Positions 2,099 to 32,018 of a stretch of 64,000 nucleotides of DNA are shown here, one piece after another (position 1 is the stretch's first letter; each line of letters starts with the position of its first letter). The notes beneath the pieces are model-generated. The model did no database searches, was not told the origin of the DNA, and was given only the letters and a program-made list of their open reading frames with translations. This stretch comes from Isoetes taiwanensis (taxonomy: Eukaryota; Streptophyta; Lycopodiopsida; Isoetales; Isoetaceae), in contig JAJEKV010000060.1 in NCBI GenBank assembly GCA_021234155.1, positions 6,284,323 through 6,348,322 of the forward strand, in the 5' to 3' direction. A program made the position numbers and the translations under genes.

Positions 2099-3054
2099 CA
2101 TCATCCAACATCTCATCATACTTTGTAATTTTAACAACTCCATCGAGGAGGAAATACTAACTTAGCCATCTCATTCAGGTTTCGATCGTTTGCAAGACAA
2201 ATCAAATGTCGGTGTGGACAACTCCAGGTAAATCATTAGCTAATGCCTCACAAATTACTAAGCCTACTTCATTGGCTCATTTGCAAATTTCTAATGTATT
2301 ATCCAGACCAGTAACTCATGGGAACTCAATTGCAGCACCTTACATTGGTCATTCATCAAGTTAGTTTCATCAAGGTCATTATCTTCTTTTGTATTTTTTG
2401 TTGATGTCTTGCTGCAAATTGCCTCTTCCTCAAGTCTGGCTCCGAAAATGTTAGGTTTTCAGAAGCATTGTATGGTTTCTAAAAGAAAGGTAAGAAATTC
2501 CTTATGTTTTCTAGCTTTGGTCTAGGAAATTAACACTAAATTCTTACTAGCTAAAACACTTACATAAGCTAACATTCTTTGCATGGATTGTTGTTGCAGA
2601 GATTCTTAAAGTTCCATACCATGGCAATCACCTTCTTTAAAGCTTGCAGCCGCTAATAGATTTGTTCCAAATTCTAGTTTCTACTTTAAGATTTACGGAA
2701 TAAAAAAAGGGGGGTTTATGCGACCATAGCCCTGTACATGCACATACAGCTTGTTCATAAAGACAGATAGTTTCGTGCCAAATTTGCACTTACACTGGAT
2801 GTGTTTACTCTGAATGTCCAAGTCAAGCTCCTTTAGTGGATTCGGGAACTTGGCTTATTTAAATTCTTCAAAAACATTGTAGGTTAGTTTAACATTATGG
2901 TCCAATAATTCTCATGGAGTTGTCTAGGGTTCAAATCCCTAGGGAGATACAATAAATATCTCCAACAAACTGCAGAAGCTTAAATATAATATTTTAAGCT
3001 GATAATTTATTATGTGATATATTATCCATTATCTGCAAAATATATTAGTTATTG
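2099..3054. other. No gene; tRNA-like T-arm only
   Basis: This is AT-rich sequence without a supported gene. At 2924-2943 a B-box-like GGGTTCAAATCCCT with flanking pairing looks like a tRNA T-arm, but a D-arm and acceptor stem are not convincing, so it may be a decayed tRNA-derived SINE. Confidence 0.4.
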
Positions 3055-3082
3055 ACTAGTAAATTGCCCACCTTCGGTGGGT
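3055..3082 (-). mobile_element. Helitron 3' terminus, second family
   Basis: Read on the minus strand, a short GC hairpin (CCCACC/GGTGGG, loop of three bases) is followed by AATTT and ACTAGT, that is, a hairpin about 6 bp before CTAG|T. This is the diagnostic Helitron 3' end. The hairpin sequence differs from the GCCCAGC family used by the two neighbouring Helitrons, so it marks a separate element whose body and 5' end are not identified. Confidence 0.55.
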
Positions 3083-3665
3083 AGTCAATGTGGTTGCATG
3101 GAAATATCATGTGAGGTTCATGTTGTAGAAGCAGCAGACTAAATGCACAACCTGTCCAAAAAGATTAAATCACAGCATAAAAGATAGTAAGGGTGCCCAG
3201 CGTTGCTGGGCATAATTTTGGAAGCTATAAATGTTGGGAACTTGTGCATTTGCATATTCAGTAACTTCTAGACCATTGGAACTGTGCACGTGCATACAAT
3301 AACTTTTAAGCCATTGGATCATTTAGGGAGCCTGTAAATTGCAAGTAGCCATGTCTATGAGATGTTGATGTCTATGGGTTGTTAATGTCTATGCGTTGCT
3401 GGGCATATGTTGGGATCAAGAAGGACTCCATTAGGCAGGTACTCTAGAACATGCAATCTGAAAGCCTACATGTTGCATAGACCTAAATATCTCGAATGAG
3501 TTCTTTAAATAAAAGACGAATGGCATCATGACCATGCCGTGTCAATGATGTGTGATCATGTTTAGGCATTCTGCTATATCTATGGGCTCCACATTTCCAT
3601 ACATGCTAATAACTTTATTGCAATTAACACGTATAGGTCACAACTATTTTGTACAATGCTTTCAT

Positions 3666-4169: not shown

Positions 4170-7100
4170 AGTTGTGCTTTTTGTATTGTGCTTTTTGTGT
4201 TATTTCCATAAGCCAATGTTTATAATCCATAGGTTAGAAAGTAATATAGGGCAGCTCAATTTCTGCCATGCATTCACTATATCTTTCCTCTTACATAGTT
4301 ATTTGGGGTCATGCTCACTTTTTGCGACTCCAATTTTGCTATCCTAGAATCCTGCACAGTATTTTTCTCTTTCTCTGTTGTAATTTTCTAAACTTTGGGT
4401 TATGAGATTGAAATAGCCAAAAAGGGTACTTGGAGTTATTTTGGGCGCAATTTTAGATTATCTTAAGGTAGATGCTGCTTCTTAGATGCATATGCTCTGT
4501 TTAATGATGTGTGATAGCCAACACAGATGTTTGCGGTGATTAAATCTAGTTAAATCTATCTTGCTTCCAGGGAAATGCATTATCATTTGGACATCATAGT
4601 TTAGTTGCTCAAGTATAATCAATTAATATAACCAAACTGATGTAGATCATAGCTTGAACAACTTATACACTTCTATTATTGATGCTAATAATAGTGGAAA
4701 TCAGGAGAATGGAAGAAAGACCCTATAAAGCCATGCACCTCTTCTTAGAAGTAAAATTAGTCTACGATAGAATTTCGCAAAGACATCCTCACAATAATGC
4801 TCGGAATTTCATGAGCCAAATCAAAATAGTTTAAACAAAATTCAGCAATACATCCTCAAAATAATGCTCGAGTCTTGGTGTGGGCAAGCAGAATAATTTA
4901 GAGCCTTACATTTGTGACACATGCCCAACATGTTTTTTTAATTTCATCAATCACTTGCTTTGTAATGACCGCTTTGCCCGGGTTTGAAAACCGGATATGG
5001 ATGCACACGTTTAGGAACCGGATTCTCATGTCAACATGCCTTTAAACTTTAAACCCTTCGTCCTTGTAGTTATAAAATAACCAATGAAAAAACAGAAAAT
5101 AAAATGCTCAAACTTTCTACGATAACGAAATGATTAGATTCTCACTTAATTAGCAAGGTCCTTTAGCATGAAAAATGGCATTTAAGCTGGAGTGCAAAAC
5201 ATGGCCAGCAAGAATATTCTATATTCATCACGCTTCTTCGGCGCCTATGAGTCGATCGCATTAAAGCGGGCGAAAAAAATGACACGTTAAAAGAAAGAAC
5301 ATCTTTGGAACGATTGACCCAAGAAGGGGACTCTCATTCCTTTTTTGTTCAATCAAGGAAATAGGTAAGGATCGACGGGTTGTTTGTTTTCGTGATAAAA
5401 AGAAACAGAGCTGTTACACGTTTAATTGATTGCTTCGGATGCCTTGTACAATCACATGATGACATGCATGTCCCGGTCCATATAAAAGTTGAAAGAGATA
5501 CAAAGGACTTTTTATAAGGCGAAAGCAACTAACTTTGTATGCGTATAGCAACAAGTAGCAATTTTAATGTCATGTTATGTCCGGCATGGCGTAAAAATGA
5601 CGTAGTGTAGCCAAAAACATTTACAAACCTTGTTGATGTCCTTGCAAGCATGGCTTTACCTGTAAGTCAATATAAAAGAAAGATTAATTTTCACCAATCC
5701 ATGTCTTAGAATCCATTTTTGACTCTTGCCTAACATTTATAGAATGCAATTTTTCCATCAATAGCACATTGTTTTCTCCAATCTACACCACATGAGAAGG
5801 CCCCAAAGAAAGCCACTAAAACTATGCTTTTTTGGCGTTAGGACTAAGATTGCCAAGCTTTGCAACTAAGAGTAACCAGTGTCATGCTCCCTCTTTTTGT
5901 AAGAAGAATCATGAGTAAGGCGAAAGCGGCCTTGGCTTACCTTACCTCACAAATTTCGACTGTTAATATTAGTAGGCATGGAAATTAAAGAGAGATGAAG
6001 GTAAAATATCATGCAGGGCATTCACCTTAAGATTCTCGGGATTGAGTAGTTTACTTAAATGGCCCCCGCACCTTTTATCCCCGAAATTGATTTACGATTC
6101 TTGCAAATGGTTAACTTTTGCATAAAACAACAGATGCAACTAAGGCATTATTTCAAATGCATCATGCAAGAAGATATTACGACGATTTCAAATGCACAAA
6201 AACATCACGACTCCAACTAATGGAATCACGTGCTATCACTCGGATTCGAACTGGAACCATCGAAGCGATCCTTCCATTATGCGAGATCCTCTAACCTTGC
6301 CAAATCCAAAATTTTACGTTGCGCTTGATGATCTCGCTTAACCGCGCAGGTTGCTTGCATGAGCAACTAAAATAGGTCTCACCATAAAATACTACTAAAC
6401 CCTAACTGCCAGCCTATTCTTATGATTATCGACATTGCTCTTCTTATGATTCCTTGCTAAACCCGCCACGATCCTCCGAAAGCTACCATAATGGGCTGGC
6501 CAAAACCAAACCAAATAAAACGGGCAGGGGAAAAATCCCAAAACGCCCATAGTGCGGAGCAAGATCCGTTGCTTGCTCTGGGTTGAGGGCCCAACAGCCG
6601 ATTCTGGCCGAGCCATGAGAGCCGCCTTAGGGATTCGTCTCGAGGAGGTGCCGAGTAGCCGCTCCTTCGGGCACCGCCATGGATACCGCTGCAGAATCGT
6701 CGCCGCCTCAGCCGCCCTCGCTAACCCTAGCAAAAAAAAAACCTAAGTTTTAAGAATATGACGTGGCATCATCTCCTCCATTGGCTTGATCAAATCTGGA
6801 GCGTCCAAATTAGGGCTGGGTCCAACACTTACACAATAACATTATTATATAACTAGTAATGGTGCCCAGCGTTGCTGGGCATAAGTTGGTTGTATATTGA
6901 CTTCTTAAAAACTCTTGTATGAACGTCAAGTTGCAACAAATGTTGAACATTATGAGGGGCGGTTAATCATTGCTATGATCATTAAGTTACCTACAAAGTT
7001 TACGAAAATTGATGTGTATGGATTTGAATCTTTGCTTATTGCATATTTCATACATATTTTATAAACCTCATATGCAAAATTGTGACCAACAGTTAGGGTT

Positions 7101-20600: not shown

Positions 20601-21232
20601 TGCCTCGATGTCGGTTGAAGGCAATTGTCCAAGTATTCTTGCAATCTTCTTGAAAGTCAGCATCCTTAAAGAACTTCATGTTCAAGCAAAAACACGTCCG
20701 TCTAGACCGCCGCTGCTGCAGGGGCTCGTCTGAAATGAATTGCGGATGGTGGTCTGAAACTGAGTTGTCTCTGAGACAGAACAAAAAAGGACCTGGAAGT
20801 GCCGCAACTGCATCAACATTCCAGTAAGCTCTATCTAACCGAGAGCTTGCGCGACCCCACCAACTTGACCATTGCACCAAGTAAAGGCACCTTCACCATC
20901 AATCTCCGAGAGGTTGCAGTCATGGAGTAGACGGAGCCACTGCTGGCGTTCAAAACCAGACACCACTGTAGAGGTTGCCCCTAACTGATCAGACTCCATT
21001 TTCACCACATTAAGATCCCCAACAAGAAGCCATGAAATGTGTCAGCCCAAGCTGAGCATCTTCCCTCGCAAAGAGGCCCACGATGAAGCTCTCTGATGGG
21101 GCCTGTTATGGGCTAAACATTAATTAGACCATATTTAACCCCTTGTTCCTGCCATACAATTAGGGCCCACTGACCAAAACGATCAGCCTGAGTAAAAGAT
21201 GACTGGCAGGGAAAAGCATAATTTTATTAATT
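17661..21232 (-). pseudogene. LINE 1 ORF2: endonuclease, RT, zinc knuckle
   Basis: ORF2 encodes the nicking endonuclease and reverse transcriptase that copy the RNA at the target. Visible in order on the minus strand are: an APE-type endonuclease segment with LLVGDLN (about 21010), SVSDHHP (about 20755), an RT linker (AGLQWFRDGDRCTGFFF), RT blocks with ISLIPKVKDP and SDWRPITLL (about 19900), QGCPLAPLLF (about 19500), the catalytic YADD (19351-19365), KLLGIPVG (about 19160), and a C-terminal zinc knuckle CPLC...C..C (about 18050). The frame shifts several times. The 5' continuation lies at 31774-32018 beyond insertion I. Confidence 0.9.
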
Positions 21233-21450
21233 GGAGAAAATAATGCAATTTTGAGAATTTTAAGCACACCTAATTTGCTCGAGCACCAATACTTTCACCT
21301 AGTTCTCGAGCCCAAGATACATGAGGTCACAAACATACACATATCCATACAAATTATGTGTTATACTTGTACGTGTACGTGATACTTGTACAAGGTCAAT
21401 AATGGCCTTACAATCTACACCAATAATGAACATCAATAATTTTACTTCAC

Positions 21451-21457
21451 TATAAAA
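21451..21457 (+). promoter_or_regulatory. TATA box of small gene 1
   Basis: TATAAAA lies 43 bp before the ATG at 21494, in the context TTCACTATAAAAGCAGCTC. The same context and the same 43 bp spacing occur at 22187 before the second copy. Confidence 0.7.
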
Positions 21458-21493
21458 GCAGCTCCATTCGGTGGTAGAGGTCATTCATCTTCC

Positions 21494-21736
21494 ATGGCTT
21501 CCTCTCCTCCTTGTCCGGAGCACATCCGATCCTTCAAGTGCTACTTGAGCTACAACGATCTGTGTGAATGCTATAGAAATGGTGTTAATCTTGATCCATG
21601 GCTCCAGTCCAAAGCAGATGGCCCTGCGAGTGCTTGCAGGAAGCTCACTCGTGTTGTGGTCCACCTTTATTGGCTTCCTGATCAGGAGATCTTTGAGCTG
21701 ATTGGCATCACCTTAGCAGGTGTTGATGATGAGTGA
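21494..21736 (+). CDS. Small 80-residue protein, unknown function
   Basis: The ORF encodes 80 residues (ATG 21494, stop 21734-21736) without a signal peptide, membrane segment or zinc site. The centre reads LSYNDLCECYRNGVNLDPWL, and the end is acidic (VDDE). It has its own TATA box and a tandem copy 736 bp downstream, where the first 39 codons align (SYNDL, LDP, SKA) before a frameshift. Conservation of promoter spacing and coding start in both copies supports a real gene. The family is not recognised. It lies inside insertion I, so it is either a transposon accessory gene or a passenger. Confidence 0.6.
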   Translation: MASSPPCPEHIRSFKCYLSYNDLCECYRNGVNLDPWLQSKADGPASACRKLTRVVVHLYWLPDQEIFELIGITLAGVDDE

Positions 21737-21746
21737 ATCGTTGAAG

Positions 21747-21926
21747 ACTTGTGTACCTGCCAAGGATATAATAATGATATACGAGCACCTTCTATAGTAT
21801 GTACTTAGGATGTAATAAGCATAATCAATGTTATCAGTGATGACTACTGTATCTGTTAAGGATATAATAATGATATGAGCACCTATGAACTATGTAAGGA
21901 TGTAATAGCACAATGAATATTATCTG
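21747..21926 (+). repeat. Tandem duplication in the 3' region
   Basis: Two imperfect units of about 90 bp follow the stop codon of small gene 1. Both contain AAGGATATAATAATGATAT, GAGCACCT and AGGATGTAATA. They are probably within the 3' untranslated region. Confidence 0.65.
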
Positions 21927-22186
21927 ATGTATCATACCTGAGTATAGTGTAAGATTGTGCTCTTCGACCTCCACTTTATTTGCAAGCAGTCCCTAATTTC
22001 AATCACACCTAAATTACTCAAGCACAAATACTTTTACCTTAGTAAAATCCATAAAGCATGTTTTCACTTGATACACATATCCATACAAAATATGCATTAT
22101 ACTTGTACGTATACATGAGTCTTATATATGCTCAATAATGGCGCTACAGTCTACCCCAATAATTAACATCAATAATTTTACTTCAC

Positions 22187-22193
22187 TATAAAA
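22187..22193 (+). promoter_or_regulatory. TATA box of small gene 2
   Basis: TATAAAA in the same context as at 21451, 43 bp before the ATG at 22230. Confidence 0.65.
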
Positions 22194-22229
22194 GCAGCTC
22201 ACTTCGGGGCCAGAGCTCATTCATCTCCC

Positions 22230-22468
22230 ATGGATTTTTCGCCTTCTTCTGTTCACCACATCGAGGCGATCAAGTGGTCAATGAGCTACAATGATCTTGT
22301 CGCTTGCCTAGATAGGGGTATTCTTCTTGATCCCTACTTGCGATCCAAAGCTATGGCGTGAGATTTTTATACAGGCTAATTCGTGTTATGATCCATCTCA
22401 TTTGGCTTCACGGTTTAATAGCTATGAGATATCGGGGATCACTTTCGTGCGGTATTGATGATGAATGA
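22230..22468 (+). pseudogene. Broken tandem copy of the small gene
   Basis: This is a copy of the 21494-21736 gene. The first frame runs 43 codons to a TGA at 22359-22361. Beyond it, nucleotide similarity continues in other frames to the matching end (GATGATGAATGA at 22457-22468). The upstream 250 bp are also duplicated (AACATCAATAATTTTACTTC and the TATA box). It is probably inactive, although a 43-residue peptide remains possible. Confidence 0.65.
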
Positions 22469-22841
22469 ATCACTGTTCAACATTGTATAGTGTAAGAGCT
22501 CTTGTGTTAAGATGAAAAATGCAGAGCGTAATGAATAATAACTAGTCTATTGTACCTTGCATGTTATATATGATATAGTAATTATGTAAAAGAGCATTGC
22601 ATACCTCAAGAGTTCTCATCATCGTCGTTAGCTTCTTTAGTCACTAATTCTTGTAAGCGAGCCCCCACACTCACGGGGATCACCACCGACAACGGGCCTG
22701 GTCTCTACTGGCCCAACCGCTTTGATCTATTGTTTTCAAATGTTGGTAGCGTGGCGGGTCATTAGGATTGGGTCTCCAATTCTTGCTCCAAAGCAATCCC
22801 TATCTTGCATTGCATATGAGGTTCCTTTTAAACCTTGAGGC
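22469..22841. other. No gene recognised
   Basis: Spacer between the small gene pair and the end of the DUF7869-type gene. No frame or signal is supported. Confidence 0.5.
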
Positions 22842-25755
22842 TCAAACCAAGAGACAAACACCTCTTAAGTAATGTGGGAGATTAGGGTCCTCTATTGGGT
22901 CCTCTTCGGCAAAAGCCATCCACATTGGGCAGTTATCATGTGGTCTGATTAGCAAGAGCATTCCTTTCTTGACATCTTGGTATGGGTCGAATATTTCAAC
23001 TGGGTTCTTGGGTCTAGCCGAGAAAGGCCCTACATAATGAGATGCTTCAATGTGCTCATCCACAAACACGTTTTCGGGTTCTTCCAATGCATTTTGCACG
23101 GTTTGGGTGAAATCTGAATGGCGGCTCTGCACGGGCTGAGCGTCCCCAAGCTTTTCGCAACAAGGTGGACCAGTAGTCAATAACTTCATTCATATATGTG
23201 TTGGACCATGAATTATCACCAGCTCTAGAAATAGCTGCCCAGTGCATCATGTACTTGGCAATAGAAGCTCCCAATGCACCTATATCTTTCAAGCTCCCAT
23301 ATGGCTGCATACCCTTAGGTGACCCTCTCGGAATCATAGGTAAACCTTGGGCATCCTCCTTCCACATTCTGATTCCCTTTTCCGGGGAGCCACTCCCTAT
23401 GCCACGGCCTCATCTTGTAGAACATTAGTGGCCATCCATCCTTCATCACGAGAACTTGAAGAGTAGAGGTTTCAAATGACCACATAAATGGTCCTTCTTA
23501 TCGAGGGGATAAAACCTTTCACGAATTCCTTCCAATTAGGAACATCGACACAAGGTAAGGTGAAGGAGACTTTGAACTACACTTTGCACGAAGAGTTGCA
23601 TAAGCTACGGAATAGTCAATGCATCGATCTTCTCATTAGAGTCAGATGGTTTCCAAAGAGGGCATCTATGTCATCGTGGGTGTGTCCAACCATCATGAAT
23701 CCCAGCTGCACTTGATCAAAGACACCTAACCAAACCAAGTATGACAAGTAAGAGAAAAGATATCTATTCTTATTTTGACCTGAGCAATTATCTAGCTGCA
23801 AGTAAAGCCTCCTAGGCAACATGTTCGGTACCATAGGGCCCTTCACAGGAGGCATAAAATCATTTCTACTGCCATTTACCATTTTTGTCCTAAGGGCATC
23901 TGTGTTTAAAATTGCTCCACCCCAACAGCTTTCATGGCGATCTGTATCTCTCAAATGGCCCCAATTATCCTCAGATTTATTCTCCAGTGTCTTCAAGGTA
24001 TGATTCAAGGATCCCACATGAAAATTAGAATCATCAAGCCAGAGGTCCAGTGAGAAGTGGCCCAAAGCACCTATACCATGCCCGTGCATGAGAGCACCTG
24101 TAACACTCACCTTCAGTCGTTCACCCCTCCACACAGACTTTGCTAGCTTTTCTAGACGAGGGACCATGGTCTTATTCTGATCCATCTTGTCATGTATAAT
24201 GGTTAAAGCGTGCTCAAGAGATCTATGAGACAAAGCTCTCCAAGACCAGTAAAGGCTCCTACATGAAATCTGGGCCGTCATATGTGATTTTCTCTCCATT
24301 GCAAGTACCCTTCTTTCATTTGGATCTCTGGTCTTAGCAAGCTTTTCCTTTATGACAATACAGGTGTTACACTTAGAAAATGTTATCCTCTTAGCTATTG
24401 CCACCTCTGAATGATTCTCGTTTCAAGCGGGCGAGAAAGGGCGAAGGAGAAATATGCTTTTGTCATCTACGTAGCGGTAATATCTACTTCTTGGTGTATA
24501 TCCTTCTTAGTCAAGACTGAAGGTAGCCTCTTAACATTTTATGCGCTACCCTCGCTCGTAATTTTCGGCGGTGTGGCATCGTCTCTGCATTTTCATCTAT
24601 GAACATAGATAGCCAGGCAACGGTAATGAAAAAACATTGCCCGACCAAAGTATGAGACCTTGGCTTCTTAGAACCACTATTTTCGTGCTCAGCAATTCTG
24701 TGGCCATCATTGAAGAGCTTCTTCCACTTGTAAAAAGTGGAAATGTGTATGCCATAGGCTTTATGCCATGTTTTCATGCACACCTGTTTGTTATTCAACA
24801 TCAGGTTGCGGACTACACCATTTTCAGAGCAAAGATCTAGCATGTTATATGCAAAGGTTGTGCGCTCCGAGGACTTCATGTTCCAGTAAAAGGTTCTCAT
24901 GCAAGCTATCTCCTTAGATGTAAAATTTGCACAGCATCTTTTCATGCAGCACAGTGATGACCTGAAGTCTAAAATAGCCTCAGCACTAGTTTTTCTTTCA
25001 CATTTGGTCTGTGTTGGACGTGTCCTGGGTCTCCGATTGACCATGTGGTAAGGTCTCTTTTTTGTGATGCCAATTTCTGGTCTAATGGAATAAGGTTCAT
25101 TCTCCACATCCTTCTCCTTCACTGCAACCACGAGAGTAGAAACTGGAATGTTATCAACGAGCACGAAGGCGATGGGCCATCTTACAAGGTCATGCAGCTG
25201 GGGCATTTCTGCACAGACTTGGCAGCGCATAGAGATCTTTTCAGGCATTGGAAATAGGCTCATGATAGTAGCTGCTATCGAGCCTTCCCCTGACTTCACG
25301 TCAGCAACAGCATGGTTTGGGTCGACAAAAACGATAACACCACACCCGTAAGCCATGTGGCAGCATTCATGCATGAGTGTGCAAGCCTTCTCAATTAACT
25401 CATCTCTAGAAAGCCCTTGCACATGATTCGTCTCATTATTGCCTAATCTCTCATTGCCTCCGACCTGCCAGTTTATGCGTTTAATCTGTCCTGGTGGCGT
25501 GCAAACTTCTTCCTCTCTCACAAGCTGACCAGCAATGTCCTTCTTGTACCACAACACAAAACTCCCCACAACTTCACCAAGTTTTTCTATTTCCAGCTCG
25601 GGAATTGGTAGTGGCAGCTGTCCATCCAAAACATTCACAACCGAAACAACCACCATACCCTCCGGGACAATCGAATTGTGATGGCGCTCGAAATTGTGGA
25701 CTCTTCCTTCTGCCACCTTTTTCCCCAGCAAATAAAGCAAGATTACATCCGCCAT
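22842..25755 (-). pseudogene. DUF8039/DUF7869-like transposon protein
   Basis: The start is ATG at 25755, and the first frame runs 414 codons to 24511. The N-terminal part (residues 1-75) resembles the DUF8039-type domain of plant transposon proteins (VVVSVVNVL, PLPIPELE, VVGSFVLWYKK). Residues 270-390 have a Cys-rich CCMKRCC start and a WHKAYGIHISTFYKWKKLF segment. After a break near 24450, a 262-codon frame (24404-23616) carries the DUF7869 core: CNTC zinc pair, KMDQNKT, LQLDNCSGQNKN and GHTHDDIDALFG. The D..C and GHTHDDID motifs suggest an RNase H-fold transposase. The tail continues at 23367-22842 in other frames. Breaks near 24450, 23600 and 23150 could be introns but look like frameshifts. 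Confidence 0.7.
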
Positions 25756-25775
25756 CCTACAAACAAGACATCGTG

Positions 25776-25795
25776 AACATCGCGGCCGCGATGTT
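25776..25795. promoter_or_regulatory. Perfect 20 bp CG-rich palindrome
   Basis: AACATCGCGGCCGCGATGTT is a perfect palindrome 20 bp upstream of the DUF7869-type ATG. At least ten variants with the same ATCGCGGCCGCGAT core lie between 25.8 and 31.6 kb, at 26073, 27410, 27511, 27575, 27621, 29290, 31410 and 31560, among others. This makes it a candidate binding or methylation site of the element. Confidence 0.6.
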
Positions 25796-25889
25796 TGTAA
25801 GCAAATAGAGCTCTGTTTTAAAAGTTCTAGTACAAAACGACAATTGGGAACTAAAAAATGCTAAGGACTTTCGCCACCGCGATCTTATC

Positions 25890-26115
25890 GAGCATTGGCA
25901 AGAACGCGGTCGCGCTTTCTGTAAGCATCCACACTAGCTGTTTAGTTAAGAACTCGGATATATCTTTCTCTCGGAGTCGAAAACACATGTCGAGATTAGC
26001 ATGTGGTTTCGACTCATATTGATAAATATATCGGAGTTCTTAACTAAATAGCAAGTGTAGATGGTTGAAGAAATCGCGACCGCGATCTCGTCGAGCACAA
26101 GAGTTAAAGCAGTGA
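25890..26115. repeat. Foldback inverted repeat, about 225 bp
   Basis: Arms of roughly 100 bp face each other across a spacer of about 10 bp near 25990. The left arm contains TTTAGTTAAGAACTCGGATA (25941 onward), and the right arm its complement (TATCGGAGTTCTTAACTAAA near 26030). The outer parts carry a CG-rich site on each side (GCGGTCGCG and ATCGCGACCGCGAT). It sits in the divergent promoter region and is either a MITE or a regulatory hairpin. Confidence 0.65.
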
Positions 26116-27142
26116 CTTCCACACTAAAGCATTACTCTTACCTCACAGGTCTCGAAATGGTGGCGTCAACGTCTCCTTGTAGCCAATGACCCGTCAGAAA
26201 CTGCAGTGCCACCAAAACATGTTTTGTATCATCCACAAGCAGAAAGAAAGCATATATTTGAAACACGTGAACATTGTATAATAAACACAGCAGAGTGCAC
26301 ATGTTTGCTGAGAACATCTATTTTTAAATATTCTAATCCAAATTATCAGCAGGTATCTTATCAATCCATACATTAAATAGTGTTGTTTCAGTAGAATCAA
26401 TTCAATGCCGAGAACCCTGTAAGGAAACATTCTTTAAGGATGAATTATGTATTATTGATCATCAACTATCAGCACATTCTTAACAGGTAGTAGTTATCAA
26501 TGAAATTTATTGGATCATTAACTTCCAGTTCACTTTACTGAGAGATAGGCATCAGGATAGCCCTTTTACCTCGCCCAAAACACTAAATTCGATGCAGTGG
26601 AAGAAATCGAAATGTATAGTGGCGCAGTGCAAGCGGATTATCAGTGCCCTTGTCAGCGCCTTCAATTGATGCGGGATTCTGCAGCAAAACCTTGGGAGAA
26701 CATGGCACAGCTTAGGTGCAGCTCGAGCGTCTCCGAGATCTTGTAAAACAAACAAATTTGAATTGGCTTTTCCCGCTTTCACTCTAAATGTTTGTTACCA
26801 AATTCAAATTTTCATGTCGCTGTCCATCTGTAATCTAGTGTCTTTTTCAGGCCTTTTGGCCGCTTAACATGTCAGGTTCATTTAATTAACTGACTGTACG
26901 CGAGAAATTTGAACGCGGACGTCCAAGTCGATGAAGAGCTCTCGTACGGATTGCGTGCTTTTTTTGTTGGGTATTTTCGCACGGACGCATTTATGGCCGT
27001 TAATCAATACAGCCGGCCAGCCGGTAATTAATACAGCCGGCGTGTAATTAATGCGCCCGCACGTACGGCGTCATTACGGCTGGCACGACAATCAACGCAT
27101 CATTATGATTGGCGGGCATTTAATTTTCGCGCCCGCGTTTCT
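26116..27142. other. Divergent intergenic region
   Basis: No gene is seen. The last 150 bp (26990-27140) are CpG-rich with repeated CAGCCGG and TAATTAAT blocks, and they lead into a TATA box. They are probably the promoter of the ParB/methyltransferase-like gene. Confidence 0.45.
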
Positions 27143-27149
27143 ATATAAA
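27143..27149 (+). promoter_or_regulatory. TATA box of the ParB/MTase-like gene
   Basis: TATATAA in the context TTTCTATATAAATTT, about 145 bp before the likely first ATG at 27290. Confidence 0.55.
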
Positions 27150-27289
27150 TTTACTGTCGGCCATATCATCTCAGAGAATTTCCAGTGCCCGCGAATTCTT
27201 CAAGCGCCTAGCGCCTTCGAGCTTTCAGTGGCTTAAAGAACCTCCCTTAAACAACCCGATTTTCGTACTCAGCCAGCTCCCGCGATCCC

Positions 27290-30200
27290 ATGGCACCTAA
27301 GGACTCCCTCAGAGAAGGTAAATCCTGATATTTCAGCTCAGCAAGATCGCGGCAACGATCTTGCTTATTAGATTTTGTTATGTTTTGATTGTTGTAGCTG
27401 CTCATCAAGATCGCGGCCGCGGTCTTGCTGAGCATAGGTTTTCTTTTCTTGCCCTGCTTAGCTGCCACACAACAACGTGGCCGCGATGGTGTGGAGTAGT
27501 AACTCGGCAGGATCGCGACCGCGGTGTTCATGAGCAGTGATTTTGTTTTCTTGCCCTGCTTAGCTGCTACAAAACATCGCGGCTGCGATAGTATGGAGTA
27601 GTAGTATAGTTGCTTGGAAGGATCGCGGTCGCGGTCCTCTTGAGTAGTTTATATTTTTCGTTGTATAACATTATGCAGCCTATCAAGCACTCACCAGAGG
27701 CTTTTGTTTACAGCCCTCGATCTGTTTCGTGGACCGGATGTCGAACCCATCCGTATTATAACCCCCTCTAATGAAAGGAAATGGTGTATAGAGATTGCAC
27801 AAGCAATACCACACATTCGTGGCGACCGCAGAAAGGACCTGTGCCTGTTCCTGCGCACTGGAAAGAAAGCTGAGGACGTTGAACAAGTTGGCATAGTGGT
27901 GGCAATGTGGGAAGGCACGAAGAACAATGTGCAAGATGCTATCATATGCAGCATCGAGGACACACACCAATTGCAATTCCTGAAATACATTCTGAAATGG
28001 CGCAATTATGATCCATCTATGATGACAGCCAGCAAAATGAACAGGCCAGCCACAGGGAAAAACGTCCCAACATCAGTTAAGGGTTATGGCTGGGTGTTGC
28101 CATCTTACGAATCTCTCTCTTTGTCAGGTATAAAGGGAAACAGAGACATCTTGGTAGGGTTCTCGGCATGCAGAAATGGTTTGTCCATAGACAAGAAGCC
28201 TCCGAGCAGTGCTTTGAAAGCAGTTCGGGACGAGAAAATGCCCTCGGTGATGGACACCAATTGGCTCAGAGCCGTGGCCAAGAAAAGAAGTGTGAAGCCA
28301 ATTGCTACTTTGGGAGAGCCTTCAGCATCAAAAAAAGTTGTTGAAGAACCACAATCCACCATAAACCCCTCCGGTATTATTAACCCTACTCTTCTTCTTG
28401 CTTTAAAGGCCCCAGATAGCACTACCTGTGGTGGATTTATTCCAAAAAAAATTACTACTTTCAAAATAAACCTTCGAAATCTGAGCACTGACGATAGCCC
28501 GCAGCCCAGCAATTCTCAAACCACCCCATCTGTTACGGAAGCCTCTTCTACTAAGTTGTTGACATGGCCACACGCACCTGCCATTCCAATCGAGTTGAAG
28601 TTCAATCCGGAAGAGGAACGCAAGATGGCAGAGCAGACCACTCAAAAGCTTGGACAGTTTAAACGATTTTGCCCCTTAGAGGTTAACTGGTTTACCAAGA
28701 TTTCTATTTTTGATTGTGAACCTGCACCAGCAAACCTGACACACCGAATGCGCTCAAATGACCATGTTCAAACTCTGGTTAAAAGCTTCAAGACATACCC
28801 AACAGAGGTCCTCACGCCTGCTGACGTCGTGCCATTTGACACCATTACCAGGTAACTGATTCTTTATCTTTTGGACATTCGTTGTTTAGATATGACTTGA
28901 TGGTTGTCCATTTTTTCAGGAGGAGGGTGACATGGAGCAATCCAGAGGATTTAAAGGGCAAGAAATTTTACATTATTTCTGGCAACCACAGTATTTGCGC
29001 GGCACAACTCCTTTGTTCGGTCGTCGGCCAGTTGGAGCAGCAACTAGAATTTGCTAAAGGATATGCTAGAAGATCGAGTGTGCTCAACGGAAATCTTACA
29101 GACAAGGAATATATAGAGTTGAGCATTCAATGCAACAAAGTAATTGCAAATACCGTCTCTGACTAGAGCCACTAATTGGCTGCAACAACCGGTCATCGGC
29201 ACAAGGCTTATGGTTGTCCTCCACAAGGACCGATAGGGATCCTTCTGAGTTCAGCTTGGAAGGTATTTCTTCATTTTCTACTCACCAACATCGCGGCCGC
29301 GATCTTGATGACCTTTGCTTCTGCAGGATTTCCATGAAATTGCAACCACCACTTTGAAAGTGCAGGATCTTAAAGATGAAAAACAATTCATCTTTATGGA
29401 TGAGAAGGTTTTCAAGAAGTTAATGGAAGTTGCCGGTTGTGGGTGAACCGTAAGCTCGGTGATGACCATGGTGAGTTTCAGGACAAGCCGATCAAAGACT
29501 TCTTTAACAAGACGGCTCCGGTTGCTACGAGGTATGTCGAATGGAGAGGTGTCACCGTTTGCTTTCGATGAAATAATAGAAGGCAAGAGGCGTATTTAAA
29601 GGTGCGGTCGGGGTATAGCGGAGATTTGATTGCAAACAACGGGCAACCGACATCAGAACCCTCACTTTTATGAGGCGAAATTTTATCTTATGCCACAAAT
29701 TTCTTTGCAAAAGGATTTGATAGCTTCGGAGGAATTGCTTCCGGGCTTTTCCCGATTTGTGACAGAGAATACTTGATATATCGGATCGATACGAGTGCGT
29801 GAAGGCTAACTATAACAAGGATCATACACTAGGTAACCTACCTGTAGCCTTTCTGGAGCCAATCAGAAATATTTTAAAGCCAGAAGAGGCTAGAAAAAGA
29901 AAAGAAAAGAAAAATATTGTCATAGCAGTGACAAAGGATGGCATCCCTACTTCCTCCCCAGTGTCAGAGAATGCCACATTGATATTTATTGACATCCGAG
30001 GGATGAACAAGGTATGGGATTGCAAGAAATACACAGATCTTTTTACAAGGATAGCTATCATGACTACTGCAAAAGTTTATCACTTGGTTATTATCATGCG
30101 CTCTGTGAATTTGCCCAATTGCTTGTACAGTCAGAAGCAAATTCAGGGAGGTGGCCACCTGTCTTTGGGTTCTTATGAAGAAATGGGTTGGGAGAGCAAA

Positions 30201-31293
30201 CGAAGGGTGAAAGAATATCAGTATTATATTAGTCATATGTGCATTAACAGGAGTGACGTTCGTGTAGCACATGTGCAACCTGAGCTGGAGCTTCGTCTAT
30301 CTCCACACAGCAAGGCTCCTAAGCAAACACCATTGCCTCCAATGCCGCTAACAGGTAATGAGGATGCCGATGACAAGATAAAAAAGAAGTTTCAAACTCT
30401 TTTTACAGGCAAATCAAGATACAAATGGGCAGCAATGGAAGGAGATCTTGTATTGAAATGCCAGCTGAAAACCTCATATGCCTATTATATTGTTGATCAG
30501 CTGGTGCCCACCGACGGTTGCGTCCTGGATTTCTTTTCGGCTGGGACAGCTTCTCGTGTCGCTCTTATGCAAGGCAAAAAGAGCGTGCCCTTTGAAAGTT
30601 CAGGTAAAGTGTGCCATTTCCTCAGGTCCTTCTTGGAAACGCTTGAGAAAATGGCCAGTCAAACTACTGGGGGATCTGAAGAAGAGGAGAAAGCAGAGAA
30701 TGCAGAGGCTAATCCTTTGCTGCCCAACATCAGTATTACCCAAAACACAGATATATTAGGGTTGGATGCCATTTTGGATAACCTCGATGCTAAAGGCTAC
30801 GAGGAGAGAATGCAAGAAACAAAGCGCTTGCTGGAATCGACGGAAAAAGGTATTGATGCACTAGAACCTACTTTCCAAAAACTAGAGGCACTAAACCAGA
30901 AGCTTGATGTGTACATGCCATTCTTGACAGGCGAACATAGGTTTGAATACATTGGCGTACATCACATGGAAACAGACCAAGATGATTCTGTTGGGACACA
31001 AGAGCATCAGGTACCCTACAAGAAGCCGAAGATCTTTCATCCACACGAGATTGCTACTGAGTCGGAGAAGGAATTTATAGGCGTGATCAGCGCAGGCGAT
31101 AGTGGAAATGTGGAGCCTGATTCACGTGGAGCGCATCGCAAATGCCATGGGCGTTGAGATTCCAGAGGTCACAGGTTATTCAGAGATGGACACAACACAA
31201 GCTATGGAATTGGGTAGAGCGCATGTCATCCGCATTGCCAATGAATTGGGTGTGATACCTGATAGTGTATCTGAAACACAATCACAAGAATGA
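27290..31293 (+). CDS. Multi-exon ParB-like/methyltransferase-like protein
   Basis: Exon 1 (27290-27317, MAPKDSLRE) joins in frame across a 396 bp intron (GT 27318, AG 27713) to exon 2 (27714-28851), then exon 3 (from 28920). Exons 2-3 encode a ParB/Srx-like fold: ISIFDCEPAPANLTHR, LVKSFKTYPTEVL, and KFYIISGNHSICAAQLL in place of GERR..A. A later exon (from 29766, after an AG acceptor) has an N4/N6 amino-methyltransferase-like C-half, LVPTDGCVLDFFSAG.ASRVALMQGK (30500-30570), matching the VLDPF.G.G motif I but degraded. No clear DPPY is seen. An acidic linker and coiled coil follow (30660-30910). An in-frame TAG (29164) and frame changes near 29440 and 31100 may be unresolved introns or damage. 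ParB+MTase pairs are known from phages and mobile DNA; the role here is unknown. Confidence 0.55.
27341..27642. repeat. CG-palindrome cluster in intron 1, 102 bp duplication
   Basis: Within intron 1 there are six CG-rich near-palindromes at about 27346, 27408, 27478, 27511, 27575 and 27621, for example GATCGCGACCGCGGT and GATCGCGGTCGCGGTC. A 102 bp unit starting near TTTTCTTGCCCTGCTTAGCTG is present twice (27439-27540 and 27541-27642, imperfect). The sites are conserved at the same place in both units. Confidence 0.65.
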
Positions 31294-31766
31294 TAATTGC
31301 ATCCCTATTGTACATTACATCCTTCAATGGAAATTTTTGTTTCAGGAATATGTTTTACCATATCTTTTTGTCTTTACTATTACTTGGTGCATGTTTAATA
31401 TTGAAAATAATCGCGGCTGCGATCCTCTGTGGCAAATACATAGCTTTAAATAGTGAAATGTTTGTGCTATGCCTACTCCACTGCGTCTTTCCAGTACGTT
31501 ATGCTCTCATATGGTGTTAATAAAAAGCTCATTATTTTGTCTCTTTTCAACTGCGAAAGATCGCGTTCGCGATTCTTGCGATAACATCGAGCATTCCATA
31601 CTACTACATTCTACTCACGATGGACCTTTGCATGAGCAGTAAAAACTGTATTTCTGAACAACGCCGAATCATTGGTAGAATTTGTACTAAAAAACGCCAA
31701 CTTTTACTCAGTTGCTAGTAGTTTCTGCACTATATGGCTAACCAAGAACCTGAATTCCAAATTTCT
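31294..31766. other. 3' flank of the ParB/MTase-like gene
   Basis: No gene. AATAAA at 31518-31524 may be a polyadenylation signal. Two further CG-rich palindromes (AATCGCGGCTGCGAT at 31409 and GATCGCGTTCGCGATT at 31559) lie here, close to the right end of insertion I. Confidence 0.5.
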
Positions 31767-31773
31767 CTAATTA

Positions 31774-32018
31774 ATTAATTCATGCTTGGAAGGAAGCCAT
31801 GCTATCACCACCCCTGCACTGGCAGAATCAGCTGCTGCGATAAGGGCATTAAACCTTCGACCAATCATGTCTGCAAGCTTTGATACGTCTCCTTTACGAC
31901 ACTTGTGCTCTTGAAGACATACAAACTGAGCATCCAATCTAGATAAGTAGAAAGAAATGCGACTCCGCTTGAGGGGGGAGGAGGCTATCCCCTGAATATT
32001 CCATAAGACTAACCGCAT
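31774..32018 (-). pseudogene. LINE 1 ORF2 start, endonuclease N-terminus
   Basis: The ATG at 32018 opens the APE-type endonuclease: MRLVLWNIQGIASSPLKR, then QFVCLQEHK (the metal-binding E) and GVVIAWLPSKHE. The frame leaves LINE sequence at 31774, where insertion I begins. The next endonuclease residues are found at 21232 and below. Confidence 0.85.

Follow-up and report, generated by a model that had tools for sequence, protein, structure and literature searches.

Transposons carrying genes for ParB-like DNA methylases have been reported from algae, and the available part of the published account goes no further than to suggest self-modification (PMC12477816). One of them, Sola1-1_Ec32 of the brown alga Ectocarpus, is described there as encoding a 1104–amino acid protein with ParB-like and DNA-methylase parts on the strand opposite the transposase. 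Sola elements more generally are characterized, in the accessible portion of a second paper, by a DDD transposase, target-site duplications (TSDs) of 4 bp, terminal inverted repeats (TIRs) of 11 to 1124 bp, and lengths of 2 to 9 kb, with some exceeding 15 kb; they are known from Physcomitrella and are seemingly uncommon in flowering plants (PMC10741241). Here we describe a 10,574-bp element in a land plant, the lycophyte Isoetes taiwanensis, located in a stretch of 64,000 nucleotides that we call the window (assembly GCA_021234155.1, contig JAJEKV010000060.1, positions 6,284,323 to 6,348,322; contig C1068 of the 1.66-Gb genome that we searched). The genome contains a complete form I rbcL gene and a large family of DYW-deaminase genes (150 scored matches among 701 candidates, every one above the cut-off, against none in 14 prokaryotic controls); expansion of the DYW family is characteristic of land plants. 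The element pairs a gene for a DUF7869 protein with a divergent gene, here called gene 2, and is rich in short palindromes. With moderate confidence, we read it as a Sola1-like transposon in which a DUF7869 protein acts as the transposase and gene 2 encodes a pseudo-methylase that acts on the element's own palindromes, countering silencing or tuning expression.

The element resembles Sola1-1_Ec32 in placing a ParB-like/methylase protein opposite the transposase. It is shorter, at 10.1 to 10.6 kb rather than 21.5 kb, and lacks the catalytic motif, whereas the algal methylase is predicted to form N4-methylcytosine (4mC) or N6-methyladenine (6mA); palindromes, present here, go unmentioned in the available part of the algal account (PMC12477816). 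The original prediction held that ParB-methylase pairs are familiar in phages and not in plant transposons. Because such genes had already been reported from algal transposons, the pairing with a transposase is not the first of its kind. A literature search, with bioRxiv preprints and most subscription journals outside its reach, found no land-plant ParB-methylase transposon and no paper that names DUF7869.

VANDAL21 is a Mutator-like transposon of Arabidopsis. As far as the available parts of the two papers describe, the motifs of VANC21 are tandemly repeated within introns of VANC21 and VANB21 and in the region upstream of VANA21 (PMC5735166), and VANC proteins act by binding noncoding regions, with loss of silent marks as the result (PMC10398659). 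The Isoetes element is similar in combining an accessory protein with short, family-specific motifs in introns and upstream regions; motif binding and loss of silent marks were shown for VANDAL21, whereas for the present element we report motif placement only (PMC5735166; PMC10398659).

A transposon with common ends and two divergent genes

Comparison with five other genomic copies (K1 to K5) placed the limits of the element at 21214 to 31787. All six copies end abruptly at common points and are flanked by 4-bp TSDs that are identical on both sides of each copy and differ from copy to copy (GGAA, AATT, AATC, AAAG, AATA, and TTTT); those of the window copy, GGAA, lie at 21210 to 21213 and 31788 to 31791. 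The imperfect 22-bp TIRs occupy 21214 to 21235 on the plus strand and 31766 to 31787 on the minus strand. In the window, AAGCATAATTTTATTAATTGGA and AAGCATGAATTAATTAATTAGA are alike in 18 of 22 bases, and across the six copies in 18 to 20. The elements measure 10,574 (window), 10,246, 10,307, 10,145, 10,451, and 10,427 bp. When the empty site is rebuilt with one GGAA, a reading frame runs open across the junction and, judged by eye, encodes an endonuclease-like peptide of a minus-strand long interspersed nuclear element (LINE), ending at a stop a few codons on. Reverse transcriptase–like frames, also recognized by eye, lie farther left of the junction. The LINE assignment of the flanks was made by eye because a Pfam scan of three flanking open reading frames (ORFs) returned nothing at E ≤ 0.01.

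The DUF7869 gene remnant, a probable transposase gene, spans 22842 to 25755 on the minus strand. Its protein contains the LQLDNC and GHTHDDID signatures on which the DUF7869 assignment had first been proposed, and that assignment holds: PF25273 matches at 23619 to 24422 on the minus strand (E = 1e-31; 110.4 bits against a Pfam cut-off of 26) and matches copy K1 more strongly (E = 2.3e-42; 145.2 bits). Stop-to-stop frames reach 849 amino acids in K1 and 1019 in K3; the window copy is degenerate, with stops and frame breaks in both this gene and gene 2. The two genes, on the minus and plus strands, respectively, diverge from a 1.5-kb intergenic region (25756 to 27289) with palindromes at 25778, 25869, 25902, and 26072. 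A PDB profile search with the DUF7869 protein found no transposase match. The aspartates of HDKMDQ, LQLDNC, and GHTHDDID are common to this protein and to that of family B, another family of this genome introduced below.

Among the published Sola1 features, the 4-bp TSD is present in all six copies and the 22-bp TIR lies within the described range; the element length (10,145 to 10,574 bp) falls between the two published ranges. Because of the TIRs, the TSDs, and the family resemblance, we infer cut-and-paste transposition for this DNA element, Sola1-like in build by published description, with the DUF7869 protein as its transposase.

Joint travel of the two genes was computed from lists of genomic matches. 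First-look candidates, which are rough and mostly unscored, numbered 4,242 to 4,295 for gene 2, 12,490 for DUF7869, and 2,159 for the left end. The lists hold the best-scored part of these thousands of candidates, so the pairing counts are lower bounds. The 106 rows for the last exon of gene 2 reduce to 91 places (15 rows, being further pieces of the same places, were left out), and the other two lists contributed 143 of 144 and 103 of 103 rows. Of the 91 places, at least 29 lie no more than 40 kb from a listed DUF7869 match; in every case (29 of 29) the match is encoded on the opposite strand and to the same side, and in 25 the distance does not exceed 9 kb. The N-terminal exon of gene 2 has such a neighbor in 24 of 103 cases, without exception opposite in strand and to one side; this exon is itself listed within 40 kb of the last exon, always on the same strand, in 31 of 91 places. 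The association runs both ways: DUF7869 was present at 8 of 10 loci picked by gene 2 alone (one of which, L012, was already a listed pair), and gene 2 at 6 of 8 loci picked by DUF7869 without a listed partner. Common ends, TSDs, and two-way co-occurrence thus support a single transposing unit. The proposal of one insertion that moves as a unit is thereby supported, although its span of 21233 to 31773 fell slightly short of the true limits.

Gene 2 and its link to ParB-methylases through family B

Gene 2 has four exons with GT-AG introns (assigned by eye) and is open for 1163 amino acids in K1. In the window, exon 1 (27290 to 27317) and intron 1 (27318 to 27713) precede exon 2 (27714 to 28851), in which the first half of a ParB-like segment begins at about 28682. 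Exon 3 (28920 to 29261) holds the second half, with SGNHSICAAQ and, in this copy, a premature stop at 29164 to 29166. Intron 3 (29262 to 29326) is followed by exon 4 (29327 to 31293), which encodes the methylase-like part, here with frame breaks, and carries FIDIRG at the place of motif IV (29985 to 30002) and VLDFFSAGTAS at motif I (30522 to 30554). SGNHSICAAQ and VLDFFSAG therefore do belong to one divergent gene on the plus strand, as first proposed.

Direct comparison of gene 2 with profiles of phage ParB-methylases gave a hint only. For motif I and for the entire methylase region, none of 250 column shuffles matched the score; in the ParB-like segment, 5 of 250 shuffles reached the score of the first half and 50 that of the second, and motif IV was misplaced and reached by 32. 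Nothing credible for gene 2 appeared in phage tblastn searches or viral contigs. A PDB match at E = 0.00023 was rejected as three weak stretches added together over a triplicated cytochrome, and a Cas9_PI match (0.0053) as lying under the Pfam cut-off. Structure prediction of two proteins from the window, run without an alignment, was uninformative, with predicted local distance difference test (pLDDT) scores of 32.9 and 38.9.

The question was decided by family B. A genome search with PF01555 revealed this further high-copy family: among 1,444 candidates, all 150 that were scored passed the cut-off, most matches spanning only the motif I half. At two widely cut family B loci, L042 (C1051:7267400-7277399) and L043 (C976:450000-459999), a DUF7869 gene on the minus strand (E = 1.5e-51 and 1.1e-52) diverges from a ParB-methylase gene on the plus strand. 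In the latter, a ParB-like exon (YVLGGNHSFKARRQL) precedes a methylase part that carries ADLPYGF and VLDAFSGSGTT and matches N6_N4_Mtase (PF01555) over the cut-off at E = 2.1e-17 and 2.3e-18; the ParB-like exon matches only DUF6551 in Pfam, under the cut-off, and not PF02195. The family B DUF7869 protein is homologous to that of the window family (E = 1.9e-32), and the methylase gene aligns end to end with phage ParB-methylases (98% probability by hhalign at E = 2.1e-13, not set against shuffles). D[LI]PYG is retained in five of six distinct readable loci, the sixth (L046) reading DLRYG; L041 and L045 are unreadable there. Two side observations, both by eye, concern the surroundings of family B: a SET-domain-like ORF lies at 2495 to 3445 (plus strand) of L041 beside a broken methylase copy, and PPR-like ORFs stand at both edges of the L043 element, as if it had inserted into a PPR gene.

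Three blocks of gene 2 align with family B in collinear order, each E-value being that of one comparison: the ParB block (364-426 to 34-95, E = 0.037, reached by 2 of 60 column shuffles), the motif IV block (719-773 to 340-403, E = 0.024, 1 of 60), and the motif I block (884-945 to 495-557, E = 0.00057, 0 of 60). Control stretches of gene 2 from the N-terminal part, linker, and tail were shuffle-like (34, 26, and 43 of 60). Because of the block order, the shuffle results, and the bridging position of family B, gene 2 appears from these alignments to be a remote homolog of ParB-methylases, encoded opposite the transposase. The initial ParB/methyltransferase-like assignment thus survives by way of family B, but with methylation probably lost. 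The eight phage ParB–DNA methylases compared likewise have a ParB part followed by a permuted amino-methylase, in the same order. They differ in being single proteins of 392 to 445 amino acids (in the seven annotated) with DPPY in eight of eight, whereas gene 2 encodes 1163 amino acids in four exons and has lost the motif.

In the hhalign register, VFIDMRSF of gene 2 falls on VVADLPYGF of family B. The tetrad D[IMF]R[SGR] stands there in 20 of 20 readable gene 2 copies (22 rows, two unreadable there), which are related rather than independent; that of L023 is readable only in the motif table, in another frame than in an earlier table. The motif tables cover 22 copies and the gene 2 alignment 11 (L019 left out). 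The beta-class amino-methylase motif [DNS]PP[YFW], or a close variant, is absent from all 20 readable copies, and motif I is altered in many copies from FSGSGTT to FS[AG]GTAS. The domain is nonetheless constrained. Across six copy pairs, the ratio of nonsynonymous to synonymous differences per site (pN/pS) was 0.11 to 0.21 in the ParB part, 0.19 to 0.33 in the methylase-like part, 0.16 to 0.38 in the N-terminal part and linker, and 0.38 to 0.51 in the tail; these values are upper guides, since synonymous sites are near saturation. Because the tetrad is found in every readable copy while the domain stays constrained, we conclude from the sequences that the methylase part was kept without its catalytic motif during the spread of the family, with present copies partly decaying. 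It probably cannot methylate.

Palindromes and the proposed role of the gene 2 protein

The window element contains 13 sites within four mismatches of the palindrome GATCGCGGCCGCGATC, against a mean of 0.10 in 20 dinucleotide shuffles, and none occurs in 6,426 flanking bases, which upholds the palindromes already noticed as shared by the two genes. At three mismatches or fewer, the 64-kb window holds 10 sites, all inside the element (chance mean 0.04). The six elements carry 13, 9, 8, 7, 12, and 13 sites within four mismatches, 62 in 62,150 bp, compared with none in 22,655 flanking bases and shuffle means of 0 to 0.15 per element (20 shuffles each). In the shuffle count the element limits deviated by as many as 3 bases; a recount bounded by the TSDs also gave 62.

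The sites lie upstream of the DUF7869 gene, in introns 1 and 3 of gene 2, and behind gene 2, with one borderline site directly before gene 2 in each of K4 and K5. Each element has four to seven sites within gene 2 introns. In the window, intron 1 holds six (27345, 27409, 27473, 27511, 27575, and 27621) and intron 3 holds one (29289); two more (at 31409 and 31559, together spanning 31409 to 31574) lie downstream of the gene. Counted from the left end, the first site comes after 4,345 to 4,564 bp in each of the six elements, and the left 4.3 kb has none. This placement fits regulation of both genes better than end recognition.

Family B shows a comparable layout with a different palindrome. Its 16-bp TGTATTCCGGAATACA occurs at 16 and 15 sites within three mismatches in the two loci, mostly in intergenic sequence and apparent introns (no shuffle control), and GATCGCGGCCGCGATC-type sites were not found at these loci; one TGTATTCCGGAATACA-type site within three mismatches occurs in the K4 stretch. 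Family B therefore shares with the window family the DUF7869 gene, the divergent ParB-methylase gene, and a 16-bp palindrome of its own, and differs in that palindrome and in having mostly retained the methylase motifs (D[LI]PYG and FSGSGTT).

Bacterial parS is itself a 16-bp palindrome. Given the link to ParB, binding of a palindrome by the gene 2 protein is a natural idea. In the reading that we favor, the DUF7869 transposase would insert the element with a 4-bp stagger, and gene 2 would descend from the ParB–DNA-methylase accessory genes of such transposons, its methylase part persisting as a constrained pseudo-enzyme after loss of the catalytic motif. Through its ParB-like part, the protein may bind the family's 16-bp palindromes, which are found in the promoter region common to both genes, within the gene 2 introns, and past the 3′ end of gene 2; once bound, it may, by analogy with VANC, keep the element's genes active against host silencing, tune their expression, or both.

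Another role for the protein, which we regard as unlikely, would be in transposition itself, with the palindromes serving as enhancers at which the transpososome assembles or is stimulated, in the manner of TnpA of En/Spm or of MURB. Among plant transposons, elements that combine two genes with linked binding repeats are common, and the GATCGCGGCCGCGATC sites are confined to the element, as this role would lead one to expect. The sites are, however, not sub-terminal on both sides, with the first more than 4.3 kb from the left end in all six copies and four to seven of them intronic, so we keep end binding only as a rival role of the palindromes; descent from a methylase would also be unexpected for a transpososome part.

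It is less probable still that gene 2 encodes a working DNA methyltransferase with an unusual active site, marking its own palindromes or the element's promoters with 4mC or 6mA. The methylase-like domain is constrained, most readable family B loci retain D[LI]PYG, and self-modification is what the Ectocarpus authors suggest in the available part of their account (PMC12477816). The uniform D[IMF]R[SGR] tetrad of gene 2 speaks against it, as does the rotifer enzyme N4CMT, in which, according to the accessible part of that report, a change of SPPY to APPA ends 4mC addition (PMC8885841). Least probable is that the palindromes act alone, as host transcription-factor sites, a CpG-rich boundary, or RNA hairpin signals, with an unrelated role for gene 2: sites do occur in introns as well as in promoter regions, but different palindromes at comparable positions in two related families better fit a coevolving element-encoded protein.

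Several observations weigh against our favored reading of an anti-silencing pseudo-methylase. Gene 2 has no match in Pfam (neither ParB_N, PF02195, nor N6_N4_Mtase, PF01555, over the cut-off), in PHROGs, or in PDB by sequence or by profile, and the genome search with PF02195 found no match at E ≤ 0.001, which is not proof of absence. The hhalign probabilities of gene 2 against family B are low: 1.4% for ParB, 2.0% for motif IV, and 29.5% for motif I. The ratio of nonsynonymous to synonymous substitution rates (dN/dS) of gene 2 is 0.42 to 0.53 in the four less diverged pairs, which include decayed copies, and its site may be non-canonical and yet active. The Sola1-like build is a likeness to the published description. 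Last, although the two genes mostly travel together, the partner was missing from the stretch cut at two of the ten loci picked by gene 2 (L013 and L020) and two of the eight picked by DUF7869 (L024 and L028); these may be losses or insertions.

Left-end genes and meaning for the family

Besides the two genes of the original prediction, both present, the elements carry one or two small genes at the left end. In the window, sA (21494 to 21736, plus strand) encodes 80 amino acids and has a TATA-like box at 21450. Its paralog sB (22230 to 22465, plus strand; TATA-like box at 22186) is broken in this copy and open for 80 amino acids in K2, K3, and K5. The two are about 40% alike and have no Pfam match. 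All six elements, as well as four other loci (L012, L015, L016, and L018), have one or two genes of this type, not all of them open; none was matched in the two family B stretches. The dN/dS of sA was 0.27 to 0.36 in four pairs, several rows of that table comparing sA with sB or with broken copies. The left 0.6 to 1 kb, including the small genes, is nearly identical between K1 (L001) and K5 (L009), with synonymous divergence (dS) of about 0 and 0.08. Despite these near-identical left ends, gene 2 and the DUF7869 gene are synonymously saturated between the two copies, as if subfamilies had swapped left ends.

It is possible, and we offer it tentatively, that a family of land-plant transposons has recast a captured bacterial-type ParB-methylase as a non-catalytic, sequence-specific self-recognition protein that loads on family-specific 16-bp palindromes, parS-like in form, in promoters and introns and protects the element against host silencing, whereas a related family may still methylate. 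VANC is not known to derive from a ParB or methylase protein. If the reading is true, anti-silencing by gene 2 would have an origin separate from that of VANC. Copies are plentiful in this one genome, with first-look candidates in the thousands, and a mostly motif-keeping family stands beside a dead-looking yet conserved one, each with separate palindromes. The presence of both families, each with its own palindrome, in the same genome makes the role of the protein testable and allows binding to be separated from methylation.

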